Shown in pieces: positions 2,927-38,091 of a stretch of 64,000 nt of DNA; the stretch's first letter is position 1; each line of letters starts with the position of its first letter. The notes under the pieces were generated by a model. The model was not told where the DNA came from. It made no database searches and saw nothing but the letters and a program-made list of their open reading frames with translations. The stretch is from Bordetella trematum (GTDB lineage Bacteria; Pseudomonadota; Gammaproteobacteria; Burkholderiales; Burkholderiaceae_B). Location of the stretch: NCBI RefSeq assembly GCF_900078335.1, contig NZ_FKBR01000046.1:186001-250000 (forward strand). The letters run 5' to 3'. The translations under genes were made by a program, and so were the position numbers.

Positions 2927-3403
2927 ATGACCACGCCTACTGCCGCGCCTTCGGCCCAAGACCACGCCGCGTTGCTGCGCGAGATCGGCCCCCTGCCCCT
3001 GTCGGGCCAGGCCTGGCCCGATTGGGTGCGTATCCTGGCCTGGATCCTGCTTGCCCTGCTCGGCATGCAGCTCATCAGCACCGGGATCCGGATGCCCGCC
3101 AGCCAGCTCAACACCATCCTGGCCGCAGGCGTGGGGCTGTGCTTCCTCGGCCTGGCCGTGGTGTCCTGGAACATGCAGGTTTCCATCACCACCATCGACG
3201 AGCGGGGCCTGCGCCAGCGCTGGTTCACCCGGCGCGAAGTCGCCTGGGAAGACATCCAGTCCGCCAGATTCGTGCCGCTGTTGTTTTCCAAGCGCCTGGT
3301 GATCTTCACCCGCCGGGGCCGCCCCATCGTGTTCCAGGGCGGCACGCGCGAATTGCAGTCCGCCTTCGCCAGGATTTCCCAGCTTTACCGCCGCCCCCTC
3401 TGA
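2927..3403 (+). CDS. Two-helix membrane protein with PH-like domain
   Basis: This 158-residue protein is uncharacterised. It has two hydrophobic segments (about residues 30-50 and 58-78) and then a soluble beta-rich tail with the pattern ITTIDERGLRQRW...VAWEDIQSARFV. This resembles the bacterial PH-like domain found in small membrane proteins. The frame is open far upstream into mvaB, but the ATG at 2927 follows a GGAG-type ribosome site. Function is unknown. Confidence 0.65.
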   Translation: MTTPTAAPSAQDHAALLREIGPLPLSGQAWPDWVRILAWILLALLGMQLISTGIRMPASQLNTILAAGVGLCFLGLAVVSWNMQVSITTIDERGLRQRWFTRREVAWEDIQSARFVPLLFSKRLVIFTRRGRPIVFQGGTRELQSAFARISQLYRRPL

Positions 3404-3499
3404 GCGCAGGCCGCCGCACTGACGGCGCTGGCGCTGCTGCGGAGCTGCCTGGCAGCCCGCCGGCAGGCCACCCGACCCTGTGCGGCCGGGCGATGAGCC

Positions 3500-3530
3500 G
3501 GCCGACCGCGCCTGACGACGCGGTCCGGCC
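3500..3530 (-). terminator. Hairpin just after the amino-acid-binding protein gene
   Basis: An 11-bp stem (3500-3510 with 3519-3530, one bulged C) encloses an 8-base loop immediately past the stop codon at 3533. There is no T-run, so it may act with Rho or as an mRNA 3'-end stabiliser. Confidence 0.4.
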
Positions 3531-3532
3531 TA

Positions 3533-4549
3533 TCAGCGGATGGGCAGGGCGTACATCAGGCCGCCATCGGCCCACTGCGCATTCAGGCCGCGCTTGATCT
3601 TCAGCGGACTGCCCTGGCCGACGTTACGCTCGAAGCTTTCGCCGTAATTGCCGACCTGCTTGATGATGTTATAGGCCCACTTCTCGTCCAGGCCCATGTT
3701 CTTGCCGGCGCCCGGCGTCACGCCCAGGATGCGGCGCACGTTGGGATTGTCGCTCTTGAGCTGCTCGTCGACGTTGGCCGTGGTCAGGCCGTACTCTTCG
3801 GCCTCGATCATGGCCGCCAGCGTCCAGCTCACGATGTTCAGCCAGGCATCATCGCCCTGGCGCACGAACGGCCCGAGAGGCTCCTTGGAGATGATTTCCG
3901 GCAGCACCACGTAATCATCCGGCTTCTCCATCTTGGAAATACGGATCGAGGCCAGGCCCGAGGCATCCGTGGTGAACACATCGCAGCGGCCGGCGGCAAA
4001 GGCGTTGACCACTTCGTTGAACGTTTCGATCACCACGGGCTTGTAGGTGATCTTGTGCGCGCGCGCCCAGTCGGCCAGGGTGTTCTCGTTGGAGGTGCCC
4101 GTCTGCATGCAGATCGTTGCGCCATCGAGGTCCTTGGCGCTGTTGACGCCCAGTTTCTTCGGCACCATGAAGCCCTGGCCATCGTAGAAGTTGATGCCGG
4201 CGTGGATGATGCCCAGCGCCGTGTCGCGCTGCTGGGTCACGCTGGTGTTGCGCGTAAGCACGTCCACTTCGCCGGATTGCAGTGCGGTGAAACGCTGCTG
4301 CGAATTCAGGGGTACGACCTTGATCTTGTTGGCGTCGCCCAGCACGGCAGCCGCCACCGCCCGGCACAGATCGACGTCCAGGCCGCGCCAGACGCCCTGC
4401 GCGTCAGGCGCCGAAAAACCTGCAAAGCCGGTGGTGGTGCCGCACACCACGGCATCGCGCTTCTTGACGACGTCCAGGGTGGCCGCTTGCGCGCCCTGCA
4501 GGCCGGCCAACGCCAGCGTGGCTGCGGCAGCCAAAGTCGTGATCTTCAT
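3533..4549 (-). CDS. aapJ: General L-amino-acid ABC transporter substrate-binding protein (AapJ/BztA type)
   Basis: This is a periplasmic binding protein of 338 residues with a clean signal peptide (MKITTLAAAATLALAGLQGAQA). The mature start (TLDVVKKRDAVVCGTT), RGLDVDLCRAVAAAVLGD and the LNSQQRFTALQSGEVDVL region are typical of the AapJ/BztA family, which delivers polar or acidic amino acids to AapQMP-type importers. The ATG is preceded by AGGAG. No permease or ATPase gene is adjacent, so it must work with a transporter encoded elsewhere or as an accessory receptor. Confidence 0.9.
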   Translation of the reverse strand: MKITTLAAAATLALAGLQGAQAATLDVVKKRDAVVCGTTTGFAGFSAPDAQGVWRGLDVDLCRAVAAAVLGDANKIKVVPLNSQQRFTALQSGEVDVLTRNTSVTQQRDTALGIIHAGINFYDGQGFMVPKKLGVNSAKDLDGATICMQTGTSNENTLADWARAHKITYKPVVIETFNEVVNAFAAGRCDVFTTDASGLASIRISKMEKPDDYVVLPEIISKEPLGPFVRQGDDAWLNIVSWTLAAMIEAEEYGLTTANVDEQLKSDNPNVRRILGVTPGAGKNMGLDEKWAYNIIKQVGNYGESFERNVGQGSPLKIKRGLNAQWADGGLMYALPIR

Positions 4550-34805: not shown

Positions 34806-35486
34806 ATGCAGACCAGAAATACTGAAGAGAATACCGCAGTCGCGCTGCGGGCGCGATTGCGCCAAGAACGCGGCGAATTGCCCTTGAGCCAACGCAGCCG
34901 GGGCGCATTGCTGATGCGCGGCCGTCTGTTCACCTGGCTGAATGTTGCGCGCGAGCGCGCCCAGGCGCAGGGCCGCCGCCTGCAGACCATCGCCGCCTAC
35001 TGGCCCATGAACGATGAGCCCGATCTGCGCCCGCTACTGGAACAGTGGGTCGAGGAAGCCGGCCTGACGGTCTGCCTGCCGGTCGTGCGCGAACGCGACG
35101 CGGCGCTGGTGTTCCGCCCCTGGACGCCTGACACGCCCATGGAACCCGGCGCCTACGGCATCGAGGCGCCCACCGGCGACACCGAAGTGGTGCCCGACGT
35201 GGTGCTCGTGCCCACCCTGGGCTACACCCCCGAGGCTGACCGCCTGGGTTACGGCGGGGGCTACTATGACCGCACGCTGGCTGCACTGAACCAGGCCGGC
35301 CACCCCTATATCGCCATCGGCATCGCCTGGGAAGAGGGCCTGCTGCCCGAAGACTACCAACCGGCGCCGCACGACGTGCAGCTGGCCGCCGTGCTCACGC
35401 CGGCCGGCTGGGTGCCTACCGCACCGCTGGAGACCGGCGGCGCCGCCGCCGGCAGCGCCAAGGTGTTCTCGCACACCCTGCGTTAA
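34806..35486 (+). CDS. 5-formyltetrahydrofolate cyclo-ligase (MTHFS)
   Basis: The enzyme converts 5-formyl-THF to 5,10-methenyl-THF with ATP, recovering stored folate. The 226-residue protein has the hallmark DRLGYGGGYYDRTLAAL (about residues 143-159) plus IAAYWPMNDEPDLRPLL and the LVPTLGY segment. An N-terminal ALRARLRQERGELP matches the family. It is divergent from slt with a gap of only 42 bases or less, leaving no room for the 6S RNA gene that often precedes this gene in other proteobacteria. Confidence 0.92.
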   Translation: MQTRNTEENTAVALRARLRQERGELPLSQRSRGALLMRGRLFTWLNVARERAQAQGRRLQTIAAYWPMNDEPDLRPLLEQWVEEAGLTVCLPVVRERDAALVFRPWTPDTPMEPGAYGIEAPTGDTEVVPDVVLVPTLGYTPEADRLGYGGGYYDRTLAALNQAGHPYIAIGIAWEEGLLPEDYQPAPHDVQLAAVLTPAGWVPTAPLETGGAAAGSAKVFSHTLR

Positions 35487-35692
35487 TCCGGGTCGGCTGG
35501 CGGCGAGGCATCCTCGCCGGTCAACCAGCCGCGGTAGCGGGCGGCCAGCGCCAGCAGGCGCGCGTCATTGGCGCTGAAACGCCGGCAGCGCACGCACATC
35601 GCACGATGCAGGCCGCTTGCCAGACGCGTCGGCCAGGCGGCGTCTTCCCATTGGCCCGATGTCAGGCCGAACACATAGTCGCGGCATTTCAT
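35483..35692 (-). CDS. Small zinc-finger-like anti-sigma candidate
   Basis: This 69-residue soluble protein carries H29-x3-C33-x2-C36 (GLHRAMCVRCRRF), the zinc-binding H-x3-C-x2-C of ZAS anti-sigma factors, with an additional Cys at position 3. It has no membrane span, so it would sense in the cytosol. It overlaps the ECF sigma gene by four bases (ATGA), the usual position of a cognate anti-sigma. Its 3' end overlaps the convergent 5-FCL gene by four bases. The function is inferred from motif and position only. Confidence 0.7.
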   Translation of the reverse strand: MKCRDYVFGLTSGQWEDAAWPTRLASGLHRAMCVRCRRFSANDARLLALAARYRGWLTGEDASPPADPD

Positions 35693-36252
35693 GAACGCCC
35701 CTCCCCTCTCAGCCCGTGCTCGCTCAGACAGGCCTGCAACTGCTTGCGCGCCCGGCTGAGGCACTGCCAGTAGGCACTGCGCGAAAGCCCCAGCACGCGG
35801 CAGATCTCGGGCGCCTCGCACTCCAGGAACATGCGCATGCTGAACACCTGTGCATGGTGCGGCGACAGGCGATGCACACAGGCATCCAGCAGGTCGAAGA
35901 ACTCGCGCGTGCGGGCGTCGTCTTCGGGCCCGCGCCACAACGCCGGGGCCATCCCCGGCGCCCACTGGCCGGCCGCGCTGAACAGCAAGATATCCAGCGC
36001 CTCGTCATCGGGCAGGGCCACCGGCGCCCGGTAACGCGCTCGCAAGCGATCGACGATCTTGTGCCGCAACACGCCGAACAGATAGCGGCGCGGATCGCCG
36101 ACGGCCGGGTGGCCGGCCAGCACGGCCAGCAGCGTGTCATGGACCGCGTCTTCGGCTTCCTCTTGCGAGGGCAGATGCAGACGGGCAAAACGCAGCATCG
36201 GCTCGCGCCAGCGTGCCAGCGCCTCGGCCTCCCAGAGGCCGGCACTATCCAT
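35689..36252 (-). CDS. ECF-family RNA polymerase sigma factor
   Basis: The 187-residue sigma factor has region 2 (FARLHLPSQEEAEDAVHDTLLAVL, then DPRRYLFGVLRHKIVDRLRAR) and region 4 (LSPHHAQVFSMRMFLECEAPEICRVLGLSRSAYWQCLSRARKQL). Between them lies an insert of about 45 residues with an F-x4-G-x-W-x3-M/P-x2-W pattern (LLFSAAGQWAPGMAPALW). Start is taken at MDSAGLWE; the ORF overlaps doxX by eight bases. As the regulator gene inside the metal-RiPP operon it probably drives that operon. Confidence 0.88.
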   Translation of the reverse strand: MDSAGLWEAEALARWREPMLRFARLHLPSQEEAEDAVHDTLLAVLAGHPAVGDPRRYLFGVLRHKIVDRLRARYRAPVALPDDEALDILLFSAAGQWAPGMAPALWRGPEDDARTREFFDLLDACVHRLSPHHAQVFSMRMFLECEAPEICRVLGLSRSAYWQCLSRARKQLQACLSEHGLRGEGRS

Positions 36253-36721
36253 CGCGCTTGCAGCGGGCGCAGCACAAGCGGCCAAGACCGTAGCGCCCGC
36301 CACCCTGCGTCAACAACACCAGCAGCATCAGGGCCAGCATGAGCGGCACCTTGAACCCCTGGCCATCCTCCGTTTCGATCTGGTTCCAGCCAGCCCAGCC
36401 AAGGTCGAAATGGACCGCCGCCACTGCCACGTACACCACGTAGAGCAACACGGCCGAGGCCCAGCGCACGCCCACGCCCAGGATCAGGGCCAGACCGAAT
36501 ACGATTTCCAGGCCTCCGGCCGCCACCCAGTTGAAATCGGCCGCCAGCCAGGATTGCGGCCAGGGAAAGGATAATTCGCGAAACCATTGCGGCGCCTGCC
36601 AGCCACCCCCAAGCTTGACCCAGCCCGCACGCAAAAACTCCATGCCGACCCACAGCCGCAACAACAGCAGGCCCAGGCCTGCCTCATCGACTTTCGCGCG
36701 CCACGAACTCAAGAAACGCAT
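36245..36721 (-). CDS. DoxX-family membrane protein
   Basis: The 158-residue inner-membrane protein has four hydrophobic segments, the DoxX start GLLLLRLWVGMEFLRAGWVK and a later LALILGVGVRWASAVLLYVVY. DoxX-like proteins accompany DUF692/DUF2063 gene pairs in many proteobacteria and are thought to move electrons or quinones. It overlaps the DUF2063 gene by 38 bases upstream and the sigma gene by 8 bases downstream, so all are one transcript. Confidence 0.88.
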   Translation of the reverse strand: MRFLSSWRAKVDEAGLGLLLLRLWVGMEFLRAGWVKLGGGWQAPQWFRELSFPWPQSWLAADFNWVAAGGLEIVFGLALILGVGVRWASAVLLYVVYVAVAAVHFDLGWAGWNQIETEDGQGFKVPLMLALMLLVLLTQGGGRYGLGRLCCARCKRDG

Positions 36722-36956
36722 CGCATAAATCTCCGTAGTAGGGCGAGCTCCAGGCGGACTGCCGGATGAACGCCTTGATCAAAAGCCGCCAGGCGACCTC
36801 GCCCAGCCCGCCGCGCAGGGCAGGAAAGGCGCCATCGAGCATCTGGCTGACGCCCACATAGACCAGGTGGCGGTAGACCCTCATGCCGGCCGGGTCATAG
36901 CCGGCCGGCATGATCTCGCTGCGCCCCCTCACGTAGTCGAAAAAGCCCGCAGACAT
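36684..36956 (-). CDS. Short DUF2063 (HvfC/BufC-type) partner protein
   Basis: This 90-residue protein corresponds only to the N-terminal DUF2063 domain: FFDYVRGRSEI, then RVYRHLVYVGVSQMLDGAFPALRGGLGEVAWRLLIKAFI and the conserved SPYYGDLCDAFLEFV. Typical HvfC/BufC proteins are about 250 residues and deliver the precursor peptide to the DUF692 enzyme. The C-terminal domain is absent with no remnant downstream, since doxX starts inside this gene. It could be a minimal partner or a different peptide-recognition subunit. It overlaps bufB by 28 bases. Confidence 0.8.
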   Translation of the reverse strand: MSAGFFDYVRGRSEIMPAGYDPAGMRVYRHLVYVGVSQMLDGAFPALRGGLGEVAWRLLIKAFIRQSAWSSPYYGDLCDAFLEFVARESR

Positions 36957-37735
36957 GCCAGCTCCCGGTTGAGGGCCTGCGGCCCGGGCAGATCGTGATC
37001 CCACTCCAGCAACACGGGCAGGCCGTGGTCCTGGTTCAGGCGACGCGCCTGCTGCAGCGTGGCCGGCGCCACCGGCCGGCTGTGGGTATCGATGAACAGG
37101 CCGAAGCGCGCGTCGAACTCATGGCCCGCCACATGCAGATAACTGACGCGCGCGAGATCGATGCGCGCCAGGAACGCCTCGATGTCGTGCACGCCATGGT
37201 TCTTGTGGTTGACATCGATGTTGTTGAGATCCAGCAGGATGCGGCAGTCGGCGCGCTCGGCGACTTCGGAAAGGAAGTCAGCCTCGCACATGTCGCCGAT
37301 GTTCGTGTACCAGGTGGTGTTTTCGATCGCCATGCGCCGCCCCAGGATGTCCTGAGCCTGCCTGATGCGCCCGGCTACACGCAGCGCCTGGGCCCGCGTG
37401 AAGGGAATCGGAAACAGGTCATAGAGTTGATGGGCGTCGCCGCTGGCGGCCAGGTGGTCGGAATAGTGCTCGGCCTGCAACTCGTCCATCAGGGCGCGCA
37501 CCGCCTTCAGAAAGGCGGCATCGACGGCACGCGCGCCCCCCAGGCTCAGCGACACCCCGTGCAAGGCGATCGGACACCCCCGCGCGCGCAGGCGATGCAA
37601 AGGCGCGCGGTCACGCCTCAACCAGTTCTCGGGCGCGACCTCGAAGAAATCCGCTTCGATGGCAGACAGATTCCAGTCTGCCATCTCGCGCCGGTAACCC
37701 AGGCCGATCACGAGGCATCCGGTTTCTTGCTGCAT
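36929..37735 (-). CDS. bufB: DUF692 multinuclear iron oxidase (MNIO), HvfB/BufB type
   Basis: The 268-residue TIM-barrel enzyme of the MbnB/HvfB family oxidises cysteines of a precursor peptide to oxazolone, thioamide or thiooxazole groups using an iron cluster. Visible family residues are GLGYRRE, FFEVAPENWL, LHGVSLSLGG, EHYSDHLA, the IENTTWY segment, LLDLNNIDVNHKNHG, YLHVAGHEFD and DTHSRPV, containing the His, Glu, Asn and Asp ligands. It overlaps the precursor gene by 28 bases and the DUF2063 gene by 28 bases. Start at MQQETGC is chosen for family fit. Confidence 0.92.
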   Translation of the reverse strand: MQQETGCLVIGLGYRREMADWNLSAIEADFFEVAPENWLRRDRAPLHRLRARGCPIALHGVSLSLGGARAVDAAFLKAVRALMDELQAEHYSDHLAASGDAHQLYDLFPIPFTRAQALRVAGRIRQAQDILGRRMAIENTTWYTNIGDMCEADFLSEVAERADCRILLDLNNIDVNHKNHGVHDIEAFLARIDLARVSYLHVAGHEFDARFGLFIDTHSRPVAPATLQQARRLNQDHGLPVLLEWDHDLPGPQALNRELACLRAFSTT

Positions 37736-38019
37736 GCGGCATCTTTCTTGCCGCAGCTGGCGTCCTTGGACCCGCAACTGGCATCGGGCATGCTGGCAGC
37801 CTCAGCGGCCGGGGCGGCCTGCTCGGCCTTTTTCTCGTCTTTTTTCTTCTTGCCTTGAGGGGCCGTCTTGGAGGCATCGCCCTGGACGGTTTTCTTGCCG
37901 CAGGTGCCAGCGCCGCAGCGCTGATCGGCGGCGTTGGCCGTGGCGTTCGCCGCAGCGAGCAGGCCGGCAGCCAGGGCCGCAACGGTCTGCAGGGACAGGA
38001 TGGGAGAGGAACGGGACAT
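37708..38019 (-). CDS. Cys-rich secreted precursor peptide (HvfA/bufferin-like)
   Basis: The 103-residue protein has a signal peptide (residues 1 to about 31) and a mature part with cysteines only at 35, 40, 82, 89 and 96. The first pair lies in RCGAGTCGKK. The last three are spaced exactly seven apart in tandem heptads DASCGSK, DASCGKK, DAACSKK (79-99). A Lys-rich then Ala/Glu-rich linker (about 57-76) joins the two. Being first in an operon with a DUF692 enzyme marks it as the likely modified, metal-binding product. The ribosome site GGAG is seven bases from the ATG. Confidence 0.85.
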   Translation of the reverse strand: MSRSSPILSLQTVAALAAGLLAAANATANAADQRCGAGTCGKKTVQGDASKTAPQGKKKKDEKKAEQAAPAAEAASMPDASCGSKDASCGKKDAACSKKPDAS

Positions 38020-38063: not shown

Positions 38064-38091
38064 AGTCGTCGGCGGCCACTCATTCCTGACA
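38064..38091 (-). promoter_or_regulatory. Candidate ECF promoter of the metal-RiPP operon
   Basis: On the minus strand, TGTCAGGAAT (38091-38082) resembles an ECF -35 element of the GGAA type. It is followed about 16 bases later by a CGACGACTCT region, about 45 bases upstream of the precursor ATG. This is a visual match only; the sigma factor encoded in the same operon is the presumed reader. Confidence 0.3.

Follow-up and report, generated by a model that had tools for sequence, protein, structure and literature searches.

A heptad-repeat cysteine peptide operon in Bordetella trematum: a separate clade of the MNIO/DUF2063 metallophore kind with a shortened partner and an exchangeable sigma switch

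What does a compact cluster of six overlapping genes in Bordetella trematum make, and what switches it on? The cluster lies on the minus strand of a 64,000-nucleotide stretch of contig NZ_FKBR01000046.1 (positions 186,001 to 250,000; hereafter the window, in whose own numbering its coordinates are given). A sequence-only reading of the window had proposed a six-gene operon for an MNIO-modified, Cys-rich metal peptide under the control of an extracytoplasmic function (ECF) sigma factor. The gene kinds and overlaps were borne out: every frame was open at the expected place, the Pfam families matched, and successive genes in the order A-B-C-D-S-Z overlapped by 28, 28, 38, 8, and 4 nt. The overall reading was partly supported, in that it fits the comparative evidence below, and we consider it probable that the locus is a self-regulated operon for a secreted, MNIO-oxidized, Cys-repeat metal-buffering peptide. 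Sequence comparison establishes the gene set, the clade, the repeat, the shortened partner, the anti-sigma family, the promoter, and the pairing of promoter with regulator. The features are as follows.

37708 to 38019, minus strand: precursor gene A, 103 aa, an open frame with Cys 35, 40, 82, 89, and 96
36929 to 37735, minus strand: MNIO (DUF692) enzyme B, 268 aa (PF05114, E 1.7e-74)
36684 to 36956, minus strand: mini-partner C, 90 aa, DUF2063 helical domain only (PF09836, E 3.2e-15)
36245 to 36721, minus strand: DoxX-family membrane protein D (HvfX-like), 158 aa (PF07681, E 2.1e-14)
35689 to 36252, minus strand: ECF sigma factor S, 187 aa (sigma-70 regions 2 and 4, Pfam)
35483 to 35692, minus strand: predicted zinc-type anti-sigma factor Z, 69 aa (Cys3, His29, Cys33, Cys36; NF052368)
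38065 to 38091, minus strand: predicted ECF promoter TGTCAGGAAT-N13-CGAC, an exact match 72 nt 5' of the precursor ATG
37930 to 38019, minus strand: signal peptide of A, residues 1-30, placed by eye, with cleavage expected after ANA
37891 to 37917, minus strand: motif CGAGTCGKK of A, directly past the signal peptide and conserved in the clade
37723 to 37785, minus strand: heptads DASCGSK, DASCGKK, and DAACSKK of A (Cys 82, 89, and 96)

The cassette does not appear to be a chance arrangement, because the gene set recurs in distant relatives, the ratio of nonsynonymous to synonymous substitution rates (dN/dS) was below 1 (0.03-0.65) for every gene with changes in nine pairs of relatives, and a Cys spacing of seven in the precursors was far above that in shuffled sequences. 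The order A-B-C was kept wherever a locus held all three genes.

Relatives came from a scan of genome contigs, from which the best 80 of 345 loci were kept; identity to B was 55-72% in 49 of these and 40-46% in 31. A maximum-likelihood tree was built from 88 rows, comprising 48 clade rows, 38 other loci, and the gonococcal and Cupriavidus metallidurans MNIOs. The 48 rows including B formed one side of a branch with support of 100/99 and a stem of 2.82 changes per column, a tree in which the program warns that long branches meet and in which the outgroup rows are mostly gammaproteobacterial EGKCG systems. In this tree, B and its relatives form a separate clade within the MNIO/DUF2063 metallophore kind, with rows from several families of betaproteobacteria and a few from the gammaproteobacterial Moraxellaceae and Oceanospirillaceae. 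Seven loci were usually left out when counting: L039 and L043, which share their contigs with L028 and L030; L044, L079, and L087, whose precursors fall off the contig; L082, with its broken genes; and L038, with its MNIO in two frames.

Of the 52 clade rows, 49 had a homologous precursor ahead of the MNIO gene, and the remaining rows (L044, L079, and L087) begin at a contig edge. We counted 47 precursors; for one of them, L056, the tail alone was read, its leader being in another frame. In 46 of the 47, the signal peptide was followed by CGAG[TS]C[GS]KK or a close variant, and the 47th had CGKGTCGKK. The region past this motif held 207 further Cys, and 117 of the 160 neighboring pairs were spaced by exactly 7 residues, compared with a mean of 9.3 and a maximum of 19 in 500 shuffles of the tail residues. 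The repeating unit was [ED]-A-[SA]-C-[SAG]-K-K, with Ser, Ala, or Gly directly after 198 of the 207 Cys. Lys preceded only 7 of the 207 and followed only 4. The sequence-only reading had counted five Cys in A, three of them in heptads, and had set the array apart from EGKCG repeats; both observations held. The window precursor, with three heptads, is among the repeat-poor members.

Precursors of such systems fall into three groups in the text of PMC13097082, namely Lys-Cys (EGKCG), Cys-Lys, and DUF2282. Because of the residues at -1 and +1 of the repeat Cys, the heptad family is neither Lys-Cys nor Cys-Lys. The window precursor, the only one scanned in this way, had no Pfam match at E up to 10 and hence none to DUF2282 (Buf1). 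In NCBIfam, three other clade precursors matched no family of weight. By these sequence comparisons, heptad precursors fit none of the three published groups tested. In the heptad clade, a Cys-rich precursor with a Sec signal peptide, judged by eye and from the alignment of a hydrophobic leader in 44 precursors, lies directly 5' of the MNIO gene. The Lys-Cys captophorins (HvfABC, FonABC; the Buf_EGKCG/oxazolin kind) likewise combine a precursor of this type, bearing Cys repeats, with an MNIO, a DUF2063 protein, and, often, DoxX. Those systems have traits of their own: KCG 5-mers, an RRE-containing partner, a Phe pocket, and the leader NPFxxxxLxxGY, which 23 of the 28 outgroup precursors carried and all 44 heptad-clade precursors lacked. 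That leader may be a gammaproteobacterial trait, because it was also absent from the gonococcal precursor and because 10 of the 38 outgroup loci, from which no such precursor was obtained, were left out of the comparison. Table S2 of PMC12452194, described as holding 'hundreds of small ORFs', may include the heptad precursors. In Methylobacillus glycogenes (L056, 3920-4183), precursor tail and leader lie in different frames, through either a broken gene or an assembly error.

The H-x3-C-x2-C mini-protein Z was present as described earlier, but its identity as an anti-sigma factor had been missed. Z matched NCBIfam NF052368 (antisigmaE; E 9.4e-6, 25.4 bits, cut-off 50) and a gonococcal MseR-type protein (26% identity across 39 aa, E 2e-5, with Cys and His spaced alike), and its Cys3, His29, Cys33, and Cys36 were invariant in 28 aligned rows, window included. 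Meningococcal MseR, reported to inhibit sigmaE, has Cys4, His30, Cys34, and Cys37 (PMC2893595). Small, soluble, with an N-terminal Cys besides the H-x3-C-x2-C motif, and encoded directly 3' of an ECF sigma gene, Z is by its sequence traits an MseR-type zinc anti-sigma factor. S matched TIGR02943 (E 5.8e-40, 137 bits, cut-off 162) and the gonococcal ECF sigma factor (37% identity, E 4e-31). The neisserial sigmaE operon (NMB2140-2145/NGO1948-1943) holds the same six gene kinds, including an EGKCG (gonophorin) precursor and MseR, and resembles the window operon in its sigma factor, the Cys/His spacing of its anti-sigma factor, a similar -35 element, and the same promoter spacer length. It differs in gene order, in its repeat (EGKCG versus [ED]-A-S-C-S-K-K), in its MNIO (41.6% identical to B), in its 248-aa partner with a C-terminal domain, as described in PMC2954202, and in having msrAB as a second target.

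The predicted promoter TGTCAGGAAT-N13-CGAC was the sole exact match within the window. In -35 element and spacer, the form GTCAGGAAT-N12/13-CGAC is similar to the consensus published for neisserial sigmaE, GTMAGBWTT-N12-13-CGTCTAAH. The motif TGTCAGG-N15/16-CGAC occurred at most 220 nt upstream of A in 27 of the 28 loci having S and Z in the same locus, and in none of three loci with a different sigma factor nearby. Of the 18 loci with neither, 7 had it, and in dinucleotide shuffles it appeared in an average of 0.135 of 49 loci (maximum 2). The single exception was a decayed Pelistega copy (L082), whose motif lies 285 nt upstream, beyond the distance counted. Among the seven promoter-bearing loci without a nearby sigma gene, two (L049 and L081) break off close to the end of a contig. 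In four others, S and Z are paired at another place in the genome (E 1.3e-55 to 6.1e-59 for S), and in the last (L083) the site has a single mismatch and the sigma factor is more distant (E 3.4e-29). No TGTCAGG-type promoter was found near the four unlinked S-Z pairs. Conversely, no S was detected at 1e-15 in five promoter-less genomes (L042, L060, L065, L039, and L043), and the promoter-less L068 genome had only a distant S (E 2.9e-28). Both this motif and the sigmaF motif described below were recognized by eye, and they were counted in the very upstream sequences that had suggested them; later tests came from the unlinked S-Z genes and the NrsF genes. Examining the upstream regions of L056, L068, and L072 over a wider stretch left their promoter outcome the same.

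In its strict form, the promoter occurred 16 times in the genomes of 17 relatives: 15 sites were letter for letter those of the operon and one was extra, while the reversed control gave 0. Two of the 17 genomes, whose own promoter deviates, had no site. The TGTCAGG promoter thus goes together with the S/Z pair, and its strict form is, in the genomes scanned, almost private to the operon. The earlier suggestion of stress induction is supported by this conserved ECF promoter, which accompanies a sigma/anti-sigma pair. A looser pattern gave four sites in the window's own genome versus two in the reversed control. A wider S regulon, such as one including msrAB, was rejected on these counts and because the three other loose sites sit inside long open frames; one of the three (L124) has a fair -35 element (AAG for AAT). 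The extra strict site is L141 (G067:C6:124140-124166), the only exact match beyond those of the operon in the 17 genomes.

Seven relatives carry a different switch. Upstream of A in seven loci without S and Z (L042, L056, L060, L063, L065, L067, and L070; one Thauera, three Methylobacillus, two Methylophilus, and one Oxalicibacterium), we found GTAACC-N16-CG[AT]A, which was absent from the 42 other loci. The Caulobacter sigmaF site is reported as GTAACC-N16-CGAA, and sigmaF/NrsF there is described as controlling a DUF2282 MNIO operon and responding to chromium and cadmium (PMC3511200). NrsF was present in 7/7 sigmaF-promoter genomes versus 0/18 other clade genomes searched, and in all seven fetched loci the NrsF gene and a sigmaF-type ECF gene lay side by side on the strand opposite A. 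By sequence, then, the same cassette is used with another switch, sigmaF/NrsF replacing S/Z. The seven loci also share an inverted repeat, (G)GTTACA-N32-44-[TC]GTAACC. The -35 element forms its right arm, while its left arm faces the opposite-strand sigmaF/NrsF genes; the left arm may be the promoter of those genes, which would make this a two-way sigmaF promoter. Neither promoter type was found in the Bordetella hinzii-type copies, L062, L068, or L072. The Caulobacter Buf1 (DUF2282) operon under sigmaF/NrsF and the Cupriavidus gig operon share the precursor-MNIO-partner-DoxX order with the heptad cassette, and the seven members resemble them further in carrying sigmaF/NrsF and its promoter. 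They differ in having full-length partners (254 aa in Caulobacter, 258 aa in C. metallidurans), and the window operon differs from them in lacking a DUF2282 match and in using MseR-type S/Z.

These regulatory data bear on an alternative in which the operon responds to oxidative or thiol stress rather than to metal and metal binding is secondary. We regard this as rather unlikely: Z is RsrA/ChrR-like, and neisserial sigmaE is described as also controlling msrAB, but 16 of the 17 clade genomes had no strict site beyond that of the operon (two having none at all), so no repair gene was seen to join the regulon in those 16. In addition, the other switch, sigmaF/NrsF, is reported to respond to metals in Caulobacter (PMC3511200).

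The enzyme itself raises the question of chemistry. B belongs to PF05114 and retains its active-site residues, though it scored below the cut-offs of both NCBIfam models (243.7 bits to HvfB, cut-off 360; 211.6 to BufB, cut-off 310). H59, H94, D106, E138, D169, H201, H205, D216, H218, E244, and D246 were kept in clade and outgroup alike; we take these His, Asp, and Glu residues to be metal-binding or catalytic. Around D246, the clade has a signature of its own: W245 in 48/48 rows (Arg in 36/38 outgroup rows), D248 in 48/48 (Asn in 33/38), and, at position 247, Asn in 46 rows and His in two, the window included (Phe in 33/38). Position 247 corresponds to Phe250 of FonB, an equivalence read off the E-[WR]-D motif, and that site is described as Phe in Lys-Cys enzymes and Asp in Cys-Lys enzymes (PMC13097082). 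With Asn or His in all 48 rows and Asp in none, the enzymes, like their precursors, lack the traits of both the Lys-Cys and the Cys-Lys (Buf2) captophorins.

It is conceivable, if rather improbable, that this is the same operon with other chemistry, the clade MNIO making a Cys modification unlike the 5-thiooxazole of the Lys-Cys group. The long stem of the separate clade, the clade-specific W245, N/H247, and D248 around the catalytic Asp, and the scores below both model cut-offs would fit such a change. However, FonB pocket variants, F250D included, are reported to still give 5-thiooxazole (PMC13097082), and DUF2282 MNIOs are described as little conserved at the pocket site, yet Caulobacter Buf1 bears thiooxazole.

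The sequence-only reading had assumed the usual DUF692/DUF2063 pair, which proved incorrect: C is a 90-aa protein with the DUF2063 domain only, whereas PME-type 1 partners carry DUF2063 plus a RiPP recognition element (RRE) in 250-260 aa. Across 52 clade rows, the median length of C was 90.5 aa (range 52-113, the shortest rows reflecting start choice or a broken gene), and outgroup partners measured 226-262 aa with an RRE region in the 33 of 38 loci where a partner was found. C covered the region of residues 4-89 of the 237-aa HvfC model in NCBIfam, and a profile comparison with full partners placed it on columns 12-100 out of 262 (probability 98.5). In a PDB search, a clade C protein matched residues 22-92 of NGO1945 (3dee; E 0.0066), whose DUF2063 domain is given as residues 10-92, with the C-terminal domain after a loop at 117-137 (PMC2954202). 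An AlphaFold2 model of C was an all-helix bundle (mean confidence score, pLDDT, 92.7). Foldseek with the 90-aa model gave weak E-values (best 2.2), so that its support for the fold rests on the top ranks, in which 3dee came first (probability 0.89, rmsd 1.8 A over 61 columns) and MbnC second. DUF2063 occurred in 145/398 genomes of the phylum, in a frame of at least 224 aa for every match listed (about 150, the best-scoring ones; weaker matches, the window's C included, fall outside this set).

Selection has maintained the short form. dN/dS of B and C was 0.09-0.33 where changes exist (for C, in 8/9 pairs), and 20 columns were invariant in a C alignment of 36 of the 42 usable rows. By these comparisons, C is the N-terminal third of the usual partner, without its RRE half, kept by purifying selection. 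A frameshifted or decayed full partner was ruled out by the length of about 90 aa clade-wide, the purifying selection, and the position of the stop inside the start of the DoxX gene. A second DUF2063 partner acting in trans was also ruled out, as the genome contains one MNIO gene and one DUF2063 gene; this concerns DUF2063 proteins, an RRE protein without that signature not having been searched for. Many PME-type 2 partners are, like C, described as too short for a full RRE, but they lack the DUF2063 signature and their precursors lack a signal peptide, whereas C has the signature and a signal-peptide precursor.

With the RRE half gone, B and C could be vestigial or have another target, and the Cys peptide could act unmodified as a metallothionein-like periplasmic chelator; a same-genus relative with its MNIO in two frames beside an intact-looking precursor frame would also fit. 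We consider this improbable given the low dN/dS of B and C, the invariant columns of C, and the preserved A-B-C order. Membership of the published 'CxxxxC' precursor family seems improbable too, although CGAGTC past the signal peptide fits that pattern. The family is described as 76 precursors with PME-type 1 partners, 54% of whose clusters contain a Lactamase_B_2 gene (PMC12452194), whereas partners in the heptad clade are about 90 aa and, among the matches listed, no Lactamase_B_2 lay within 5 kb of operons of known position. A plasmid origin was rejected (354 plasmid records with an MNIO, none at 60% identity or more), as was a C. metallidurans gig-type operon, that locus having a full partner, an ECF gene, and an NrsF-like gene (NrsF and DUF2282 judged by eye).

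The reading we prefer, a self-regulated operon for a modified metal-buffering peptide, would work as follows. Metal or thiol stress would cause Z to release S, which would transcribe its own operon, itself included, and little else, from TGTCAGG-N15/16-CGAC. B, activated by the small DUF2063 bundle C, would modify the precursor in the cytoplasm at those heptad Cys ([ED]-A-[SA]-C-[SAG]-K-K) that precede a small residue, and perhaps at CGAGTC too. Because C has no RRE domain, B and C might recognize the signal peptide or the adjoining CGAGTC motif directly. The product, exported by Sec to the periplasm, would there bind copper or a comparable soft metal. We infer the 5-thiooxazole-type heterocycle, the metal, the inducing signal, and RRE-free recognition. 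5-Thiooxazole is the reported chemistry of the nearest enzymes (PMC13097082; PMC13419390), and was assigned tentatively in bulbicupramide (PMC12538549). FonBC is described as preferring a small residue after Cys, the tested substrates with a charged residue there being unprocessed (PMC13097082), and HvfC as an example of partner-dependent activation of the iron site (PMC13419390). By analogy, copper buffering through thiooxazole-type heterocycles would be the likeliest function; copper is our best guess because the relatives characterized in the literature read are reported to bind copper and because the Legionella and Cupriavidus gig operons are reported to answer gold and copper (PMC5413113).

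The operon apparently belongs to a branch of the MNIO/DUF2063 metallophore (bufferin/captophorin) kind without a published name. Neither the heptad precursor family nor the pairing of a signal-peptide precursor with a DUF2063 partner that lacks the RRE turned up in the openly readable literature searched, subscription papers and supplements aside; the same holds for the sigma-switch exchange. We find the case evenly balanced for a separate 'heptad' metallophore class in which the 90-aa DUF2063 bundle suffices to activate the iron enzyme and recognition is RRE-free, the signal peptide and CGAG[TS]C docking on the pair. If so, the RRE half of larger partners would be an accessory, and the modularity of the cassette would let it be moved between two unrelated stress sigma switches. 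The available literature holds that the MNIO partner presents the substrate through the RRE, to which a 2026 preprint adds iron-cofactor tuning. A partner naturally without an RRE separates substrate presentation from cofactor tuning and offers a minimal system for asking which matters. The paired promoter and sigma/anti-sigma data likewise provide a route to the signal of MseR-type anti-sigma factors, with copper or some other soft metal as the natural candidate.

Among 14 other genomes in a sample of the genus, four had the clade MNIO, one of them split over two frames; same-genus carriers include Bordetella hinzii and Bordetella genomosp. 12. In a 150-genome sample of the order, a close MNIO was present in only two, the window's own genome included. 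In the same-genus locus L038 (G014, 3183-4102, minus strand), the MNIO gene is probably broken because it spans two different reading frames, and the precursor and partner frames look intact. Pelistega indica (L082, 5759-6514) has a decaying copy, with partner and DoxX each split in two frames, the precursor repeat nearly gone, and the sigma and anti-sigma frames remaining. In the Azonexus genome of L068, the distant S-type ECF gene (L149) adjoins frames weakly matching C (2.9e-10) and D (5.2e-15), apparently a second, different MNIO-type operon. Macromonas nakdongensis has two cassettes (the L046/L062 pair), one with sigma/anti-sigma genes and promoter and the other with neither.

D scored 77 bits against the NCBIfam HvfX family (cut-off 80), and no conserved Cys was found at the DoxX C-terminus across the clade. 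The convergent neighbor ending at 35486 is presumably a 5-formyltetrahydrofolate cyclo-ligase gene, and on one side the operon is flanked by what we take, from sequence, to be ahcY-metF. Both flanking genes, taken for metF and ahcY, adjoin the cassette in all four same-genus relatives fetched.

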